DNA of 64,000 bases, from positions 1 to 64,000 of the forward strand of contig JAGVDM010000001.1 in NCBI GenBank assembly GCA_020058765.1, written 5' to 3'. The stretch comes from Candidatus Peribacterales bacterium. GTDB taxonomy: Bacteria > Patescibacteriota > Gracilibacteria > Peribacterales > Peribacteraceae. The notes under the pieces are model-generated. The model saw only the letters and a list, made by a program, of their open reading frames with translations. It ran no database searches and was not told the origin of the DNA. Shown here piece after piece: positions 39,524-48,773 of this stretch (positions are counted from its first letter, which is position 1; each line of letters starts with the position of its first letter). The position numbers and the translations under genes were made by a program.

Positions 39524-40582
39524 ATGGCACTCCCTGCAGACGACGCAGCGGCAAACGACCAACGAAAGAAGGACTTCGACAAATACCTTGAGCGAAGTGC
39601 GGAACGCCGTGAGGAGGTAAAGGAAGAGCAACGTGAACACGCCGAAGAGCGCACCATTGAAGAACAGGCACGTGCAGAGCGGCAGCACCAGGAAGCACTG
39701 GGAGAAGAGCAACGAGAAGTGGAGCGCCAAGAGGCACTCGCAGATTGGCGAGAGCAGGAGAAGCAGCGCAAAAAGGATGTGGAGGCCGACCAAGCTCGGC
39801 GCCAGCGCGAACGTGAATTGATTCTCAAGAAGCAGAAAATCCACGAAGAAGAGGAAAAGAAACACAAGGAATACATGCAAAACCTGGAATGGGCTGCAGC
39901 AATTGAGCGTTTGAAAAAGCGCAAGTCAGACGAATCACACGCGGCAAAACTCGCCATTTATCATGCAGCAGAGCGCGAAGCGAAGGAGAAAAAGGAGCAT
40001 GCAAGCCAGGCGGATACTCTTCGGCAAAAAGAAGCGGAGCGTGTGGGGAGGCAGCTGCGAGGCGACATTGAAAAAGAGGAGCTGCAGGCGTTTAGCGAAA
40101 TCGAAGAGGATATTAACCAGCGCAAAGCGAAGCTCTTTGCCAAGGAGCAAACGGAGCAGATGCAGCTGCAGGCGGAGTGGAACCGCAAGCGAGCGATACT
40201 GCGGAGTATTCGCGATCAGAGTTTGCTGCAACGCACACGGGATGAACTGGAACGCGCAGAAAAGGCATCGCTTGCAAAGTTGCGGCAGAAGTACCAAGCG
40301 CAGGCAACGGCACTGGAGGTAGAACGCACACGCCGAATTGATGATGTACGTGCAGATGCCAAGCGTGGTATGGAACAAGCCACCGCAGATGAGCGGAACA
40401 CCAAGAACCGCAGTAGGCAGCAAGCCTCACAGGAGCGCTTGGAAAGCGATATCGATATGCATCGTCGGTTTAAGGAGGGTGTGGAGCGAGAGAAGGAGAT
40501 TCTGGGCATGACTTCGGAAGAGATGGCCGAAGCATCGGACGAGCGCCGCGAGAAGAAGCAGGAAGAAGAGAACAAAAAATAA
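39524..40582 (+). CDS. Long charged coiled-coil protein, 352 aa
   Basis: Almost the whole protein is predicted as one continuous alpha-helix or coiled coil, rich in E, K, R, Q and A (for example REEVKEEQREHAEERTIEEQ and KKDVEADQARRQRERELILK), with no hydrophobic segment. Such composition resembles TolA-like or structural rod proteins, but homology cannot be claimed because low complexity causes spurious matches. The inner start MALPADDAAAND is chosen from the -10 spacing. It sits between aspS and tRNA-Leu, facing the four-gene cassette at 40.7-45.5 kb. Confidence 0.7.
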   Translation: MALPADDAAANDQRKKDFDKYLERSAERREEVKEEQREHAEERTIEEQARAERQHQEALGEEQREVERQEALADWREQEKQRKKDVEADQARRQRERELILKKQKIHEEEEKKHKEYMQNLEWAAAIERLKKRKSDESHAAKLAIYHAAEREAKEKKEHASQADTLRQKEAERVGRQLRGDIEKEELQAFSEIEEDINQRKAKLFAKEQTEQMQLQAEWNRKRAILRSIRDQSLLQRTRDELERAEKASLAKLRQKYQAQATALEVERTRRIDDVRADAKRGMEQATADERNTKNRSRQQASQERLESDIDMHRRFKEGVEREKEILGMTSEEMAEASDERREKKQEEENKK

Positions 40583-40719: not shown

Positions 40720-41964
40720 CTACACTGTAGGTTTTGGCACCTCTGTAACAGCACGTAAGGCTACTTTTTGCATAGCCTCAATGAATTTGAGAGGGCTTGT
40801 TACTTCGTTCGTTGCGGCATTTACTCCAAGCGTATCGAGGTTGGTAACACCTGCAGTGTTAAATGCTTTGAGGAGTTTTGGCATATCCATACCTGTCTTA
40901 AATCCAAGAGCGATGTCGATGCCGTTTGCTCCTGGTTTCACTTCCAATGCTGCGAGTGCTTTTGCCAGATCCCCTGTTGCTGGGAGCTTGGCGAGCACTT
41001 GCATGAGCACATCTTTCAGGCGTACTTGCATCTGCTCACAAGCAGCGACCGCACTGTCGATAGCAGTGAGATCTGCCTTTGCCTGCTCAAATTTCTTCTG
41101 CGCATCGGCAAGATCGCGGTTGAGCTGATCCACTTCGCGGCGTGCAGTATCTACGGCGGATTCCGCGGTACGGAGATCATCCGTTTTGGTATCACTTTTC
41201 GCACGCAGCGTCTTTAGCCGCTCTTCGGCAGTCACCAGCCCGCCCTTTGCCATGTCTCTGCTTTTTTCAATTGCAGGAATGCCTGCCTGGAGCCGGTCGC
41301 GTTCCTCCGTTTTCTTCTGCTTGAGCGTAGTGGCACTCGTTTCACCGGATTCGCGAAGAATGCGACGGGTATGTTCAGCGGGTGTGCCCGTAATACCAGG
41401 AACTTCTGCACCTGTTTTTGCTGGCTCAGTGATCTTCCCCATCGCCTTATCCAGCTCGCCGGTAAGGTATTTGAAGTACTTCTGTATTGCAGCGAGCACC
41501 AGCAGGAACGCCTTGAGCGCATCCTTCATAGTAACATTCTCTTTTTTCATGAAGCTGGATGCTTGGTCGAGTGCAAGGAAGAGCTCATCCTCTGGTGAAA
41601 GCTGCTTGCGCAGTGCCTCTAGGCGAGAGTTTGTTTGATCCATCACTGCGCGCTTTTCCTGCTCCTGACGCGAAAGCTCTTCGATCTTCGCATCAAGCTT
41701 GGCCGGCATATCCCGAGCGGCAGCATCAATCCCTTCTGCCTCTAAGGCAGCTGCATCTGGGTCCTCCAGTGCCTGCCCCTCAAGGAGCTGCTGCTGGATG
41801 AATTTGAGCTGATCTAATTTTTGCTGAAGAGCAAATACTTCACTCTGCGCCGCATCAAAACGTTGCTGTACTTGTAACACACGATCCTTGGCAGTCACCA
41901 CTTCTGGTGCCTGTTGAGGAAGGTCTGGCACATTGATCTCTTCTGGTGTTGGTTTTGCGGGCAT
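40720..41964 (-). CDS. Coiled-coil protein of unknown function, 414 aa (cassette, large gene 2)
   Basis: Unrecognised. No signal peptide. N-terminal coiled coil (residues 25-140, RFDAAQSEVFALQQKLDQLK), a short hydrophobic helix (ALKAFLLVLAAIQKYFKYL, near 155), a second long coiled coil (about 210-330, VDTARREVDQLNRDLADAQK) and a small C-terminal alpha/beta domain with GIDIALGFKTGMDMPKLLKA. That last motif resembles segments of the 943-aa protein upstream (TDMPKILAFAQAH). It is the last gene of a four-gene minus-strand cassette. TAAAAT and the run CCCTCTAT precede the ATG. Confidence 0.68.
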   Translation of the reverse strand: MPAKPTPEEINVPDLPQQAPEVVTAKDRVLQVQQRFDAAQSEVFALQQKLDQLKFIQQQLLEGQALEDPDAAALEAEGIDAAARDMPAKLDAKIEELSRQEQEKRAVMDQTNSRLEALRKQLSPEDELFLALDQASSFMKKENVTMKDALKAFLLVLAAIQKYFKYLTGELDKAMGKITEPAKTGAEVPGITGTPAEHTRRILRESGETSATTLKQKKTEERDRLQAGIPAIEKSRDMAKGGLVTAEERLKTLRAKSDTKTDDLRTAESAVDTARREVDQLNRDLADAQKKFEQAKADLTAIDSAVAACEQMQVRLKDVLMQVLAKLPATGDLAKALAALEVKPGANGIDIALGFKTGMDMPKLLKAFNTAGVTNLDTLGVNAATNEVTSPLKFIEAMQKVALRAVTEVPKPTV

Positions 41965-41979
41965 AGGGATAGAGGGATT

Positions 41980-42300
41980 TTAAGCGGCAAGAGGACTAAA
42001 ATTGAGCACTGCTGCTTCCTGTTCGCGCGTGCGCTGTTCAACAGTACTCGCGAACTGTTGTACTTCTTGTTCCTTGGCGCGCATGTACGCACGGTACTGC
42101 CGATCATATTCGGCAAGTGCCTCATCGTAGTGAGCGTTACGTGCAGCAAATGCCTCTTCGGTTTCGCCCTCCTCGCGAGAGAAAATAGCTGCTGCGTCCT
42201 CGGGCGAAAGATTGGGGATATTCGCCAGATCCGGCTCTATGGGAGCCATAATCTGGAAGTAGAGTGCGCGGCCGTCGAGGATGGTGGGTGTGGGAGTCAT
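41980..42300 (-). CDS. Small helical protein, 106 aa (cassette, small gene 2)
   Basis: Unrecognised. It begins MTPTPTILDGRALYFQIMAP followed by IEPDL, then a charged helical part (HYDEALAEYDRQYRAYMRAK). By eye it is a paralogue of the 115-aa protein at 45170: both have R-x(2)-Y-x(3)-M-x(2)-IEPDL early and a Y-D-E/A-A-x(4)-Y helix later. It lies between the two large cassette genes (gaps 23 and 15 bp). The ATG at 42300 is preferred to a TTG 6 nt upstream. Confidence 0.62.
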   Translation of the reverse strand: MTPTPTILDGRALYFQIMAPIEPDLANIPNLSPEDAAAIFSREEGETEEAFAARNAHYDEALAEYDRQYRAYMRAKEQEVQQFASTVEQRTREQEAAVLNFSPLAA

Positions 42301-42323
42301 GTACAAAGAAGATGTTTATTTAC

Positions 42324-45155
42324 TTACGCTGTAGCGTTGAGATCATCCGCAACGGGGTCTGCCTGTTGCATCTCCTCGGCAACTTTGGTCTTGGCGGCCT
42401 CAATCTGCTTCGCGCGAGGGGTATCGACAGAATCAATATTCTCTCCGCCGTAGTACCCAAGTCCGTCGAGCTTGCCTGTTACATTCAGTGTAATCTGGCG
42501 TGCTGGAGGAGCGGAGTCACCAAAGTCTGTGCTCTGTGGCACGAGTTCGTGTGCCTGTGCAAAGGCGAGAATTTTTGGCATGTCTGTTTCGGCACTGCCG
42601 TCTGTCTCCTGGATGAGCAGTGTTCCATTTTGCTGATCAAGGCTTACCATCACGTTGTAACCGGCCTTGTCGGCATTTGCCTGTATATTCTCTGCCCATC
42701 GAGTGAGTTCTAGTAAGCGCTCGTTGCCAATCTCAGTACCTGCTGGGGTTGCATCTGGAGTGTTCTCTGAAGCTGTTGGATCTTCAGCGGGAGCAGCTTC
42801 AGCATCATCTGTAGGTTCTGGTGTAGGCTCTTCTGCTGGAGCAGAGGCTGTTGGATCCTCAGCGGGAGCAGCTGTAGGTTCTGCTGGAGGCTCTTCTGCT
42901 GGAGCAGCATCGGGGGCCTTTGCAACCTCTTCAGTAGGTGGAGTAGTTGGCTCGGGAGTTTCTGTTGGCTCTGGTTTCAGAACCAATTTCCCATCCTCCT
43001 GCATGACTACCTTTTCTGCATCAGATCCAAGTTCATTTTCCAATGCAGATACAAGCATGTCATTCACATCTGCAACATCGTCACCGCCGGCTTCGCGAGC
43101 CTGCGCTGCAATTGGATTAAGCTGATCAAGTGCTGCCTGTGGATCGCCGCCAGTTTGGAGTGCGTCACGGAGGATCGCCCCAGATGTAGTGAAGTCCTGC
43201 ACTAACTGATCAACCGTCTTCTCTGATCCATCTTCTGTCCCTTTGTCCTCGACTTCCTCGGCTTCCTTATACTTCTCTTTGGTGGCATCGATAACCTTTT
43301 GATCTGGAGTCGTGCCGGACACCTCCCCATCCACTGCAAACTCTACGGTGCCAAGCTTGGCACCCTCGCTGTGGAATACGTCGGCGGAGCGGCGATCCTC
43401 AGAGAGGATGACCGTGACGTCCCCCTTCGGAATGCCATCCAGACCAAGATCGGAATAGGCAAGATCTTCTAGCGTTTCATTTGTCACCTCGGCATCAACC
43501 GGCTCTTTTTCACCTGTTTCAGATGTGGTTTCGTCGGTTTCCGTACCAGACTCTGCCGGCTTCTCAGTAGAATCTTTCGGCTTGGATGCTGGCATCTTGG
43601 AGAGCAGCTCTGCATTGCCCACATCAAGCTGATACCCATCTTCTGGGTTATCATTCGCATCGTGCTCTGTCACAAATTCTTGGAACCACTTCGGTGTGGT
43701 TTCACTGAATGAATCAATGTTAATGACTGTCTGGCCATTATCGCGTGTCATATTCACCTTCACGCCGAATTTCTTTTCGAGTGCCTGCTCGATTTTGTCG
43801 AACGTGCTTTCGAGTGTATCGAGGCGACTCTCCAGCTTATCAATAGCGGCAATAGATGCTTCGAGCTTCTTGTTTTGATCCACGAGCTCGCGTCGGCGAT
43901 CCAATGCTTTGTCGATTTTGGTCTGAATACGCTCTGCCTTACGCTCAAGCTTGCGGAGATCTCCCTTCATCTTGGAAAGATCTTCTTCGCTCTTCCCTTC
44001 TTGCTCGGCATCAATGAGCTGCTTTTTGAGAGCTTGTACCTGGTCATCGACGCTCTCCTTCTTTGTCTGGAGACCGTCGATTTCCGTATCCAGTTCGCTG
44101 ATTTCCTCTTTGTTCTTTTCCACCTTCTCCTGTGCCTGATCGCGAAGATCGGCCAACTCTTCGCGCTGATCTTCAATACTTGTTGCACCGCGATCCTTGA
44201 GTTCGGCACGCAGACCAGATTCTGTAGAAGTATCTGCACTGCTCTCTGCACCGCGCTCGCCAGTGGACTTCCCTTCCTGCTTGTCCGCTTCTGTCTGGAT
44301 ACCAAGTGTCCGCTTCACCATTTCGATGATGGCAGAGAGGATCTTACCAAGTGCTGCCAAAGCCTGTGCTGGTGTTTTGGCCGCCTCTAGATCCTTCACA
44401 CCCTGATCAACCTCCTTGCCGAGCCTATCCATTTCCGGATCGTCAGAAGGCTTTTCTCCTTTCTCTTCGGCTGCTTTATCTGCTTTGTCTTTTGCTTCAA
44501 TTTTCGCCTTCACTGTATTGATACCCTCTTCGTTTGGCGTGGCACTCGACACTTCTCCATCAACATCAAATGTTACTTTGCCCAACAACGTGCCCTCTGC
44601 ATCGTACACATCGGCATCGCGATTGCCCGGGCCAAAGCTCATGTAGACATCTCCATCAGGAATACCACTAAGCCCAAGGCTTTGGTAGGCAACGCTTTTC
44701 ATTTGTTCCTGGGTAACTTCAGCTACTACCGGCTCCACTGTTTCTTTAGCGGAATCAGCTGCTCCCTCGGCCGCCTTGTCTGTGGATACCTCCTCTGTTT
44801 CTCCCTTTTTTAGCTGTGCTTTGTCAAAGTCCGTTTTTGTTTTTCCCTCATTTCCTGGGAGACCTTCGGCAATTTTCACACCAACGGTTTTGCCATTCGT
44901 CCCCTCAACAACCAATGGTGCTACCACCCCTTCTGGGGCAGGAGTGGAATCCACCTCTGTAGAGGTAGCATCCACTGCGCTTTCTGCGCGTGCTGCTACC
45001 GGACCTGCATCAGCAGATTCTGGAGCAACTGGTCCCGCCTCAGGCTTCGCCTCGATGGGCGTAGGGTCTGGGTTCGGCGTTTCCCCATCAAAGATGAGGC
45101 GGTGTTCACGATCGGCAGGATTGCCGCGGAACTGGGGGTAGAGGAAGTGAACCAT
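42324..45155 (-). CDS. Large acidic repeat and coiled-coil protein, 943 aa (cassette, large gene 1)
   Basis: Unrecognised; no signal peptide. A disordered Pro/Ala/Glu-rich N-terminus (25-140) is followed by a domain at 141-220 that recurs at 551-630 with no gaps (SGIPDGDVYMSFGPGNRDAD versus DGIPKGDVTVILSEDRRSAD, then FDVDGEVSSATP versus FAVDGEVSGTTP). Residues 320-465 form a coiled coil (EEISELDTEIDGLQTKKESV). A compact alpha/beta segment follows (VNMTRDNGQTVINIDSFSE, then TPKWFQEFV). A Pro/Ala/Glu-rich stretch (about 735-830) leads to a last alpha/beta domain with TDMPKILAFAQAH. It may be a structural or scaffolding protein, but this is speculation. Confidence 0.68.
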   Translation of the reverse strand: MVHFLYPQFRGNPADREHRLIFDGETPNPDPTPIEAKPEAGPVAPESADAGPVAARAESAVDATSTEVDSTPAPEGVVAPLVVEGTNGKTVGVKIAEGLPGNEGKTKTDFDKAQLKKGETEEVSTDKAAEGAADSAKETVEPVVAEVTQEQMKSVAYQSLGLSGIPDGDVYMSFGPGNRDADVYDAEGTLLGKVTFDVDGEVSSATPNEEGINTVKAKIEAKDKADKAAEEKGEKPSDDPEMDRLGKEVDQGVKDLEAAKTPAQALAALGKILSAIIEMVKRTLGIQTEADKQEGKSTGERGAESSADTSTESGLRAELKDRGATSIEDQREELADLRDQAQEKVEKNKEEISELDTEIDGLQTKKESVDDQVQALKKQLIDAEQEGKSEEDLSKMKGDLRKLERKAERIQTKIDKALDRRRELVDQNKKLEASIAAIDKLESRLDTLESTFDKIEQALEKKFGVKVNMTRDNGQTVINIDSFSETTPKWFQEFVTEHDANDNPEDGYQLDVGNAELLSKMPASKPKDSTEKPAESGTETDETTSETGEKEPVDAEVTNETLEDLAYSDLGLDGIPKGDVTVILSEDRRSADVFHSEGAKLGTVEFAVDGEVSGTTPDQKVIDATKEKYKEAEEVEDKGTEDGSEKTVDQLVQDFTTSGAILRDALQTGGDPQAALDQLNPIAAQAREAGGDDVADVNDMLVSALENELGSDAEKVVMQEDGKLVLKPEPTETPEPTTPPTEEVAKAPDAAPAEEPPAEPTAAPAEDPTASAPAEEPTPEPTDDAEAAPAEDPTASENTPDATPAGTEIGNERLLELTRWAENIQANADKAGYNVMVSLDQQNGTLLIQETDGSAETDMPKILAFAQAHELVPQSTDFGDSAPPARQITLNVTGKLDGLGYYGGENIDSVDTPRAKQIEAAKTKVAEEMQQADPVADDLNATA

Positions 45156-45169
45156 AGAATAGAGGGGTA

Positions 45170-45517
45170 TTACTGGAGAAAGAGGGATTCCAATTGGAGG
45201 AGCTCTGTACCTTCCACCTCACGTTCTTTTGCCTCGGTGGAAGCGAGTGCCTTGCGCTTGGATTGCTTTGAGTGCGTACGCATCTGCTTCATCAAATTCT
45301 TCATAAGTGTGTTGTATTCCTTGAAAGCTGCATCATATCGCTTGGCACGCGCCTTCTTATCCGCAGGTGTTTCGCCTGTGTATTTCGCGGTCAGACCGGG
45401 GATCGCAGATGTCACTAAATCTGGCTCAATTGCGCCCATAAGAGCGTCATACACCTGGCGAGCATCGAGCTTCCGGGTTTTTGGATCCACCTGCAGTGTG
45501 AGTGTCTGTGTGGGCAT
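45170..45517 (-). CDS. Small helical protein, 115 aa (cassette, small gene 1)
   Basis: Unrecognised. It begins MPTQTLTLQVDPKTRKLDAR then QVYDALMGAIEPDL, followed by a basic helix (YDAAFKEYNTLMKNLMKQMR). It is a likely paralogue of the 106-aa protein at 41980. The start at 45517 is chosen over an upstream TTG at 45556, which would overlap the promoter-like TACAAT. It is the first gene of the cassette and ends 14 bp before the 943-aa gene, so cotranscription is likely. Confidence 0.6.
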   Translation of the reverse strand: MPTQTLTLQVDPKTRKLDARQVYDALMGAIEPDLVTSAIPGLTAKYTGETPADKKARAKRYDAAFKEYNTLMKNLMKQMRTHSKQSKRKALASTEAKEREVEGTELLQLESLFLQ

Positions 45518-45584: not shown

Positions 45585-48500
45585 TTAGTCCTCTTTTGTC
45601 TTCTCGGCCTTGGCGTGTTTCTTGGGCTGCAGTGCTTCGATCTGTTTGCCGAGTACGCTCATCCAAGCAACGTCGTTCTTGCCACCAGCACGAACAATCT
45701 CTTCGTCATTTAACCGCAGCATGGAGCCGCTAATTCGCCACTGCGCATTCACTTTGAGGAGCTGCATGATTTCTTGCGCTGTCACGCGTGGGCTTAATGT
45801 GAGCACCACTTCTCGCATGGTTTTGCTCTCTTCCACCTTTACGCGCGTAACCCCACTCTTGCGGCAGGCAAGCTTGAGGCGCAACACAGCAAAGAGGTTT
45901 TGTACTTCTTTGGGCAAGGTGCCGTACTCCTGCTGCAGGTCTTCTTCGAACTCGGAGAGAATTGCCTCATCTTCGCTGCCCGCGAGCTTTTGGTATACAG
46001 AAATCTTCTCCTGTTCGTCGGGAATGTAATACGTAGGAATGAGTGCGGCAAACGGCAGAAGGATCTCCACGGTGATCTCTTCTTCCACGCCGACTTCGCC
46101 AGATTTAAGCTCTTCCACTGCGGCTTTGAGCATGCGCAGGTAATGGCTTACGCCAACAGTCTGCATATTGCCCGACTGCCCGGCACCCAGGATCTCGCCC
46201 GCGCCACGGATCTCCAGATCGCGCATAGCCACCTGGAAGCCACTACCCAGCTCACAAGCCTCTACGATCGCGCGTAGGCGCTTCCGAGCGTCATCCTTGA
46301 GCTTCTGTGTGTGGTACAGGAAGTATGCGAACGCCTGTCGACTGCTACGACCCACACGGCCACGGAGCTGGTAGAGCTGCGAGAGCCCAAAGCGTTCTGC
46401 TTCGTTGACGATCAGTGTGTTGGCACGCGGGAGGTCGATACCGTTTTCGATAATCGTTGAACTCACGAGTACGTGATACTTGCCCTCTTTGAAGGCCACA
46501 ATACGCTCCTCGAGTACCTCCGGTTTGAGCTGCCCGTGACCGACAATGAACGTCGCCTCGGGAATGAGTTTGCGGAGCTTGTCTGCAAATGCGTCGATGG
46601 TTTCCACGCGGTTGTGGAGCACATACACCTGCCCTTCGCGCTCCACCTCATCCAGGATCGCCTTGCGTACGAGTGCATCGGAATACTTTCGCACTTCGGT
46701 AATAATCGGTAAGCGCCCGGGTGGTGGCGTAGTGATCGTGGTGATGTCGCGCAGCTTATGGAGACCGAGGTTCAGCGTGCGAGGAATCGGCGTTGCCGTG
46801 AGTGTGAGGATATCGACGTTCGCACGCAGTTCCTTGAAGCGCTCTTTTTGCTTCACACCAAAGCGCTGCTCTTCGTCGATGATCACAAGACCAAGGTTGT
46901 GGAAGTGCACATCTTCCTGGAGCAGGCGGTGCGTACCGATCACAATGTCGATATCGCCTTTGCGCAGACGCTCTAGGCTCTCGCGCTGCTCCTTGGGCGA
47001 CCGGAACCGGCTGAGCATGTCGATGCGAATGCCGAAGCCCTGCATACGTTTGCTAAACGATTGTAGGTGCTGGTCTGCAAGAATGGTGATCGGCGCAATC
47101 ACAGCAACCTGCTTGCCGCTCTTCGCTGCCTTGAAGGCTGCGCGCATTGCCACTTCGGTTTTCCCGAATCCCACATCTCCGCATACCAGGCGATCCATGG
47201 GGTGCGGATCTTCCATGTCGTTTTTAATATCTTCGATCGCTTTGATCTGGCCAGGAGTGACTTGATACGGGAACGCCTCCGCGAATTTTTGCTCTTCGTC
47301 GTGGTCTTCTGGATAGGCGTGCCCGCGAGACTTTGCGCGCTTGGCATAGAGCTCCAAGAGCTCCTTTGCGAGCTTCTGCGTTTCCTCTTTTGCCTTCGCC
47401 ATCACACGCTTCCACTCCTGCGTTCCAAGGCGGGTAAGCACGGGCTCATTGCCTTCCTCATAGACGAATTTACTGAGCTTGTCGGCCTGGTCGACCGGCA
47501 CAAAGAGTTTGTCTCCTTCCGCGTAGGTGAGCTCCAAATACTCGCGAGCAGTGCCGTCCACTTCTTTCTGCGTCATGCCTTCAAAGTGACCAATGCCGTG
47601 CTCCATATGCACCACGTAGTCACCGGGAACGAGTGACGTAATGAAATCCAGTGCAAGCTTTTGCACACTGCGCTGCTTGCCCGCTTTTTTGAGCGAGAAG
47701 ATCTCGCGGTCGGTAAGCAGTGCGCACTGTAGGTCTGGGTTTTGTACTGAATGTGGGAGTAGCTCCGCTTCTTCTGCGGATACAAGCGTCACCGCACCCT
47801 GCCGCCGCTCTGCCTTGGCAGTAAAGGGGACGTGCTCCTCTGTACAAATTTCCGCGAGCTCGTCTGTCCGCTTGGTCACAATCACGAGCGACCATTCCTG
47901 CTGCAGCTTATCGCGGACATCGTTTAAAAAGTCTGTGAGTGTGTAGAACTTGAGCACAGACAAATACCGCAAGTGCACATGAAATTCTTGGCTCTCTGGA
48001 AATGCAGTGAACCGTAGTGTGTGGATTGCTGCTGGAGCGGGCACATCATCCTGATCATCCAGAATGAGCAGGGAATTCTTCGGCAATTGCTCTTGGAGCA
48101 ACGCCGTCTTCTCATAACTCACCGGGAAGAGCTCGAGTGACTCACCAGCGTCTTTTGTCTTGGAAAGATCTGCACTATCCACCGCGAGAATCGCCTCTAC
48201 TGTGTCGAACGCGAGAGAAATACGATAGGGATGCGTTGATTGGATGGGATACACATCAATCACATCACCTGTTCTGCGGTACTCGCCAGGGTGCAGATAG
48301 AGATCATCACCATGGCCGTACCCGCGGTCGATAAGCGTTTCCACAAGCTCGGTGAAGGCAATTTTTTCACCCTTGGTAAGAATCACCTTACGATTGCTTA
48401 ACTCGTAGTAGGAAGGGAATGGCATATCCCACGCCTCACGTGTGAGCACGAATACCTCAGGTGATTGCCCTGCAATGAAGCGGAGGAATGTTCCCAGTGC

Positions 48501-48773
48501 CTCGGGCTCAATTTCATCATTCTCATTCTCCACAGGATTGAGTGCGCACGCCTCGCGCTCAAAAAAGGTAAGCCAGTGGCGCACTGCATCTGCCTGTACA
48601 TCTTTGTCTGCCACGAAGAGTGTTGTACGTGGCGTGAAGTCCAACAGCTTGGCGGTAAGGAGTGCTTTGGATGTTTCGTTGGATGCACCCGAAAGAACCA
48701 ACCTGCGGTTGGCCTCTAAAAGTTGCGCCAGATCTCTGTGCGTCTCCTCACCAAGGAGGAGGGAGGGATGCAT
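45585..48773 (-). CDS. mfd: Mfd, transcription-repair coupling factor
   Basis: The 1062-aa protein has the UvrB-homologous N-terminus, an RNA polymerase-interacting domain (VPGDYVVHMEHGIGHFEGM) and the RecG-like translocase motifs. These are DRLVCGDVGFGKTEVAMRAA (Walker A), IVIGTHRLLQEDVHFHNLGL with VIIDEEQRFGVKQKE (DEEQ box), TLTATPIPRTLNLGL, VLVSSTIIENGIDLPRANTL and YQLRGRVGRSSRQAFAYF. The TRCF C-terminal domain follows. It removes stalled RNA polymerase and recruits UvrA. Length is slightly under the E. coli protein. The stop is 28 bp before the dnaN-side neighbour's promoter region; dnaN lies just upstream on the same strand. Confidence 0.96.
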   Translation of the reverse strand: MHPSLLLGEETHRDLAQLLEANRRLVLSGASNETSKALLTAKLLDFTPRTTLFVADKDVQADAVRHWLTFFEREACALNPVENENDEIEPEALGTFLRFIAGQSPEVFVLTREAWDMPFPSYYELSNRKVILTKGEKIAFTELVETLIDRGYGHGDDLYLHPGEYRRTGDVIDVYPIQSTHPYRISLAFDTVEAILAVDSADLSKTKDAGESLELFPVSYEKTALLQEQLPKNSLLILDDQDDVPAPAAIHTLRFTAFPESQEFHVHLRYLSVLKFYTLTDFLNDVRDKLQQEWSLVIVTKRTDELAEICTEEHVPFTAKAERRQGAVTLVSAEEAELLPHSVQNPDLQCALLTDREIFSLKKAGKQRSVQKLALDFITSLVPGDYVVHMEHGIGHFEGMTQKEVDGTAREYLELTYAEGDKLFVPVDQADKLSKFVYEEGNEPVLTRLGTQEWKRVMAKAKEETQKLAKELLELYAKRAKSRGHAYPEDHDEEQKFAEAFPYQVTPGQIKAIEDIKNDMEDPHPMDRLVCGDVGFGKTEVAMRAAFKAAKSGKQVAVIAPITILADQHLQSFSKRMQGFGIRIDMLSRFRSPKEQRESLERLRKGDIDIVIGTHRLLQEDVHFHNLGLVIIDEEQRFGVKQKERFKELRANVDILTLTATPIPRTLNLGLHKLRDITTITTPPPGRLPIITEVRKYSDALVRKAILDEVEREGQVYVLHNRVETIDAFADKLRKLIPEATFIVGHGQLKPEVLEERIVAFKEGKYHVLVSSTIIENGIDLPRANTLIVNEAERFGLSQLYQLRGRVGRSSRQAFAYFLYHTQKLKDDARKRLRAIVEACELGSGFQVAMRDLEIRGAGEILGAGQSGNMQTVGVSHYLRMLKAAVEELKSGEVGVEEEITVEILLPFAALIPTYYIPDEQEKISVYQKLAGSEDEAILSEFEEDLQQEYGTLPKEVQNLFAVLRLKLACRKSGVTRVKVEESKTMREVVLTLSPRVTAQEIMQLLKVNAQWRISGSMLRLNDEEIVRAGGKNDVAWMSVLGKQIEALQPKKHAKAEKTKED

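Follow-up and report, generated by a model that had tools for sequence, protein, structure and literature searches.

A lineage-specific pairing of small helical and large coiled-coil genes in Peribacteraceae, and the N-terminal tag carried by its large members

The class I chaperones that serve type III effectors have an alpha/beta fold. The LXG effectors of type VIIb secretion have small helical partners, Lap1 and Lap2, which act as targeting factors for export (PMC9600955). The uncultured Peregrinibacteria are inferred to live as symbionts, and little is known of how they shape their envelope or deliver proteins to neighbors. The exported large proteins of Candidatus Peribacter are Cys-rich and mostly have predicted signal peptides (PMC4736985), so the clients described here are a different set.

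The present analysis concerns a 64,000-nucleotide stretch of a Candidatus Peribacterales genome (the window; contig JAGVDM010000001.1, positions 1 to 64,000). It contains a four-gene cassette that is two copies of a wider, lineage-specific module of one small and one large gene. The literature searched, largely open-access, contains no description of this pair or of the short N-terminal tag found on many of the large proteins.

The locus and the small-partner family

Four minus-strand open reading frames of 115, 943, 106, and 414 aa (small1, large1, small2, and large2) were confirmed between mfd and a tRNA-Leu, with gaps of 14, 23, and 15 bp along the cassette, in the order, sizes, and single-strand arrangement given by an earlier sequence-only reading (Table 1). 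The 352-aa coiled-coil gene which that reading had placed just across the tRNA is also there, and a similar 350-aa gene occupies the equivalent position in a relative (locus L184). Near-identical pyrimidine-rich leaders precede large1 (45156-45172; ACCCCTCTATTCTATG) and large2 (41965-41980; ATCCCTCTATCCCTATG), where they stand in place of an obvious Shine-Dalgarno sequence.

Table 1. Cassette genes, protein features, and neighboring genes in window coordinates
Feature	Position	Strand	Remarks
small1 (P0001), 115 aa	45173..45517	-	all-helical small partner, two short helices and one 64-residue helix
large1 (P0002), 943 aa	42324..45155	-	tagged client
large1 N-terminal tag, MVHFLYPQFRGNPADREHRLIFDG	45084..45155	-	PSSM 23.6, HMM E 5.5e-5
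large1 repeat copy 1 start, residues 145-162	44670..44723	-	internal ~95-residue repeat
large1 hydrophobic/amphipathic helix, residues 265-285	44301..44363	-	similar helices in many partners
large1 coiled-coil hairpin, residues 327-463	43767..44177	-	high confidence in the model
large1 repeat copy 2 start, residues 555-572	43440..43493	-	internal ~95-residue repeat
small2 (P0003), 106 aa	41983..42300	-	second copy of the small-partner family
large2 (P0004), 414 aa	40720..41964	-	same kind of partner, without tag; C-terminus related to tagged partners (profile)
large2 hydrophobic/amphipathic helix, residues 149-169	41458..41520	-	
large2 C-terminal domain, residues 327-401	40762..40986	-	matches C-termini of tagged partners
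mfd	45585..48773	-	conserved upstream neighbor of the cassette
P0005, 352-aa charged coiled-coil gene	39524..40579	+	convergent to the cassette, across the tRNA-Leu

The motif R-x2-Y-x3-M-x2-IEPDL that had been noticed in both small proteins is indeed common to them, and the two are homologous, with 33% identity over 104 aligned residues (BLASTP E 3e-10). Further copies, which the same reading had suggested looking for, exist: the window genome has a third small gene, between rpoC and the rpsL region and followed by a 982-aa large gene, and the pair recurs widely in relatives. A profile of the small family detected one to five copies per genome in 67 of the 74 genomes of the GTDB family of the window, judged from named matches to be Peribacteraceae, and none in the 363 other genomes of the phylum sample. 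The named matches are Candidatus Peribacteria, Peribacteraceae, and Peregrinibacteria MAGs, together with two MAGs under different names. A contig filed as a Planctomycetaceae MAG (locus L200) carries a small-family gene and is probably a misbinned Peribacteria contig. The viral contigs searched contain no relative of small1.

An AlphaFold model of the small protein, based on 79 sequences, is entirely helical (helices at residues 19-30, 36-45, and 51-114; mean pLDDT 91.8). The small profile matched no PDB sequence below E 0.05, and Foldseek and VIA-align of the model against the PDB gave no match with E < 1, the best Z score of 3.8 being to unrelated proteins.

Eighty small genes were collected from 61 stretches and the window, and on these MAG contigs, which may be incomplete, most are followed directly on the same strand by a large gene. 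For the 53 partners that bear the motif, the start mostly lies within 20 bp of the end of the small gene; the two genes overlap in 19 cases, 18 of which involve 4 or 1 bases, the gene calls being mechanical and the partner starts having been picked partly with the motif in view. The pair recurs downstream of mfd (at least 29 of the 80 small genes examined), between rpoC and rpsL, and near carA. The small-plus-large module proposed earlier is therefore borne out by its wide recurrence in the family, and the small protein is probably a dedicated helical partner of the large one.

The large proteins and their N-terminal tag

The large proteins (partners, or clients) range from 135 to more than 1,700 aa and diverge fast, while mfd stays ~70% identical. 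Profile comparison links several groups of partners, the common ground being a coiled-coil core and a short domain at the C-terminus. The median Cys content of partner bodies is 0.09% versus 1.1%; near Cys-free clients are compatible with a life outside the cytoplasm, but low Cys and hydrophilicity also suit plain coiled coils. Pfam and NCBIfam scans of partners found no effector, surface, or toxin domain above cut-off, and the same databases gave no match above family cut-off for the five window proteins of Table 1; below cut-off, the matches in these and in the other partners scanned were to coiled coils, apart from one to eCIS_core in a tagged protein.

The model of large1 (overall pLDDT 53) starts with a disordered stretch (residues 1-237), continues with a hydrophobic helical hairpin and then a confident coiled-coil hairpin, and ends in an alpha/beta domain. 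The internal repeat of ~95 residues has a local alignment score of 217 versus 61 for the best of 300 shuffles; its copies lie 410 residues apart and follow the pattern EPVxAEVTxE...AYxxLGLxGIPxGDV...VDGEVS. Large1 is recognized in five of the 74 family genomes including its own, and in three of the four relatives the match directly follows a small gene and has the tag. Large2 was found in its own genome only.

The two large proteins had been described as sharing coiled coils, a short hydrophobic helix, and C-terminal DMPKxL segments. These features are present in both, with one hydrophobic or amphipathic helix each and DMPK segments at residues 857-863 of large1 and 359-365 of large2, but convincing direct similarity is lacking. 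BLASTP aligned the two with E 0.004 over the hydrophobic helix and coiled coil only, the profile comparison suggested with that description gave a probability of 3%, and direct homology was rejected at the sequence level. On the other hand, tagged partners from two other genera have C-termini that match that of large2 with 65-69% profile probability, versus 0.3% or less for large2 against unrelated coiled-coil controls; no control-partner pair came up to 10%. On these comparisons large1 and large2 appear to connect only through third sequences. The most informative feature, missed by the sequence-only reading, is the tag, which large1 has and large2 lacks.

The tag spans ~25 residues and consists of an F/H/S-rich stretch followed by E-x-R-L-[ILC]-[FH]-[FM]-x-[GP]; a Pro/Glu/Ala-rich linker comes after it. 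The tag was detected in 54 of 78 partners versus 8 of 405 neighboring genes (leave-one-out, above the 99.9% null), and at least five of those eight non-partner genes start with recognizable tags; large2 and some other partners are without it. A PSSM built from relatives, with the window genome excluded, was applied to the ~1,060 genes of the window genome. The four highest scores all belong to tagged proteins, namely a 159-aa protein (29.0), the 982-aa partner (24.4), large1 (23.6), and a ~1,810-aa protein (13.1), compared with 10.8 for the best of 5,295 shuffles.

With a tag HMM (E <= 0.02), 65 of the 67 family genomes with a small gene have the tag versus two of the seven without (Fisher p 2.6e-5), and the three genomes lacking a tag match even at E <= 10 are all without the small gene. 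In other families of the class the tag was found in 31 of 231 genomes versus 5 of 342 in the remaining phylum (p 1e-8), an approximate class-wide frequency because many genomes have a single weak match to a 27-column model with a background of ~1.5% at E <= 0.02. The inspected cases from these other families have the tag right at the start of large hypothetical proteins (MHFFKRHQWIKENRLIFMAGETPDFEPE and MLNPMFKSWGFKENRLIFMAGTTPEVAS, for instance). None of the 21 other-family genomes of the class tested in the phylum sample has the small family, so the tag is wider than the small family; tagged proteins without a small gene also mean that the small protein is not needed for every tag. Since the tag starts other large proteins, in other families as well, it is probably a class-wide targeting signal.

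Where tagged genes lack a small-family gene, other short helical ORFs of 73-129 aa often lie directly upstream with short gaps or overlaps (L213 before 3663, L220 before 8443, L222 before 5687, L204 before 3485, L207 before 1845, L159 before 14456, and L215 before 2122). The copies in G014 and G010 are homologous to each other, those in G004, G230, and G424 are weakly related, and none is clearly related to the small family. These ORFs give hints of a general rule of a partner plus a tagged client. A ~160-aa membrane protein, similar in L216, L217, and L242 and seen in two families of the class, precedes a tagged gene with zero gap. On contig C6 of genome G000, a 191-aa protein (320206-320781) has a tag-like start, MYPPFLMEKRLIH, and a JAMM-like stretch, HTHLPHHQSGPSSAD, and adjoins a 459-aa protein with an HELGH motif (318734-320113).

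The cassette had been interpreted as a module duplicated and diverged. The module stands, while duplication in place is not supported by the tree, in which small2 clusters with small proteins of another genus (98/93 support), although a sister relationship of small1 and small2 survives an AU test (p 0.345). The partners of those other-genus small proteins are among the best profile matches of large2, and for these two reasons the second pair may descend from an old lineage of its own instead of having been copied locally. We regard as very unlikely a reading in which one ordinary coiled-coil gene pair was duplicated in tandem at this locus and the tag reflects chance or composition: the homology of the small proteins and the AU test would permit it, but the grouping of small2 argues against it, and the leave-one-out statistics, the genome-wide ranking, and the class-wide N-terminal placement of the tag exclude chance.

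Possible roles of the pair

The reading we favor, tentatively, is that the small partner helps to target tagged coiled-coil clients, via the class-wide tag, to the envelope or the outside. It draws on the observed gene pairing with close or overlapping starts, the enrichment and N-terminal placement of the tag, its co-occurrence with the small gene, and the fast divergence of the clients. A co-translated helical partner and a client that has a hydrophobic helix and a signal-like N-terminus suggest a dedicated targeting chaperone. The small all-helical partner and the large coiled-coil client would be translated together, and we infer that the small protein binds its client during synthesis, probably at the N-terminal or a helical region. 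Once bound, it would keep the hydrophobic helix of the client masked and hand the client to a tag-recognizing factor at the envelope, and the client would then work at the envelope or outside. The tagless large2 could be a cytoplasmic relative or depend on the other copy. Against targeting speak the housekeeping neighbors (mfd, rpoC-rpsL, and carA), among which there is no secretion machinery, the lack of recognized effector or surface domains above cut-off, the partners without a tag, large2 among them, and the tagged proteins without a small gene.

The main rival is an internal scaffold, which we consider possible but rather doubtful: small and large proteins would assemble together into a coiled-coil structure in the cytoplasm or apposed to the membrane, with the helix and the tag as docking elements and no export. 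Consistent with this are the confident coiled-coil hairpin of large1, the hydrophobic helix common to many partners, the further charged coiled-coil gene (P0005) adjoining the locus, and the lack of linked secretion genes and of any noted Sec-type signal peptide. Scaffolds are usually conserved, however, whereas these large proteins diverge beyond recognition next to a well-conserved mfd, and the tag is also found on unrelated giant proteins and outside the family. The sequence-only reading had argued from the missing signal peptide to a cytoplasmic scaffold; this could be so, but the step is weakened by the signal-like N-terminal tag that large1 shares with proteins across the class.

It is unlikely, in our assessment, that the large proteins are effectors or pore formers directed against neighbor or host cells, with the small protein as chaperone or immunity protein. 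The disordered tagged N-terminus, the hydrophobic helix beside a long coiled coil, the absence of a Sec signal, and the fast evolution would all suit such a role, and the related Candidatus Peribacter is inferred to be symbiotic (PMC4736985). The first Foldseek rows for large1 include the alpha-pore-forming toxins (ClyA/XaxA-like) AhlC, YaxA, and XaxB, but at a non-significant E of 0.015-0.06 and mixed with SMC, BAR, and other generic coiled coils that score equally. In one tagged protein (1,308 aa, L216) a stretch at about residues 355-401 with an HELTH motif matches eCIS_core below cut-off (E 0.0029), while no scanned partner has a toxin domain above cut-off. Unlike typical immunity genes, the small gene stands before the large one and is the conserved member of the pair.

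Returning to targeting, a broader version would have the tag direct proteins into a class-wide route of targeting or export that has not been described in Peregrinibacteria, with the small family as one of several sets of dedicated helical adaptors that load tagged clients. The several sets are suggested by the other small helical genes that directly precede tagged genes where the small family is absent, and we put this forward as a possible but rather doubtful extension. The tag marks a few specific large proteins per genome and so yields concrete, testable candidates for envelope or interaction proteins, as well as a sequence handle on the machinery that reads the signal.

Comparison with described systems

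The core of LEPR-type N-termini, '(E)xRLxF', is visually like that of the tag, a likeness that we take as a lead only. LEPR-type N-terminal domains (NF012209, LEPR-8K) resemble the tag in being very short N-terminal motifs on very large proteins. As the signal involved here they were rejected: NF012209 has no match in the window genome, and NCBIfam has no model that fits any of ten tagged or similar N-termini. A 708-aa protein of G000 (C6:10704-12830) has a start, RRLLFETFEAKLPMAGD, that resembles LEPR-type N-termini by eye and has no NCBIfam match.

Intermediate-filament-like proteins and crescentin (PF00038 and PF19220) are likewise coiled-coil rods, with weak matches here (E 1.3e-5 and 0.0056). 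They too were rejected, the scores reaching 25.5 of 40 bits for Filament and 16.2 of 100 for Rod_CreS and being confined to the coiled coil.

Type III effectors and their class I chaperones (e.g., PMC3846842) are similar in combining a short N-terminal signal on diverse clients with a small cytosolic partner, but the small protein here is predicted to be all-helical (pLDDT 92) rather than alpha/beta. In the LXG/Lap system, as here, small helical partner genes co-occur with large variable proteins that have a common N-terminal feature. It differs in that the small protein is modeled with two short helices and one long helix, apparently not as a hairpin, the tag is ~25 residues instead of a domain, and no T7SS gene is linked to the small and large genes. 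Neither large1 nor large2 matches LXG in Pfam, and the small proteins have no significant WXG100 match (E 0.054 at best, in 2 of 79). The tagged client with its small helical partner looks like a so far undescribed means of protein sorting, inside the cell or out of it.
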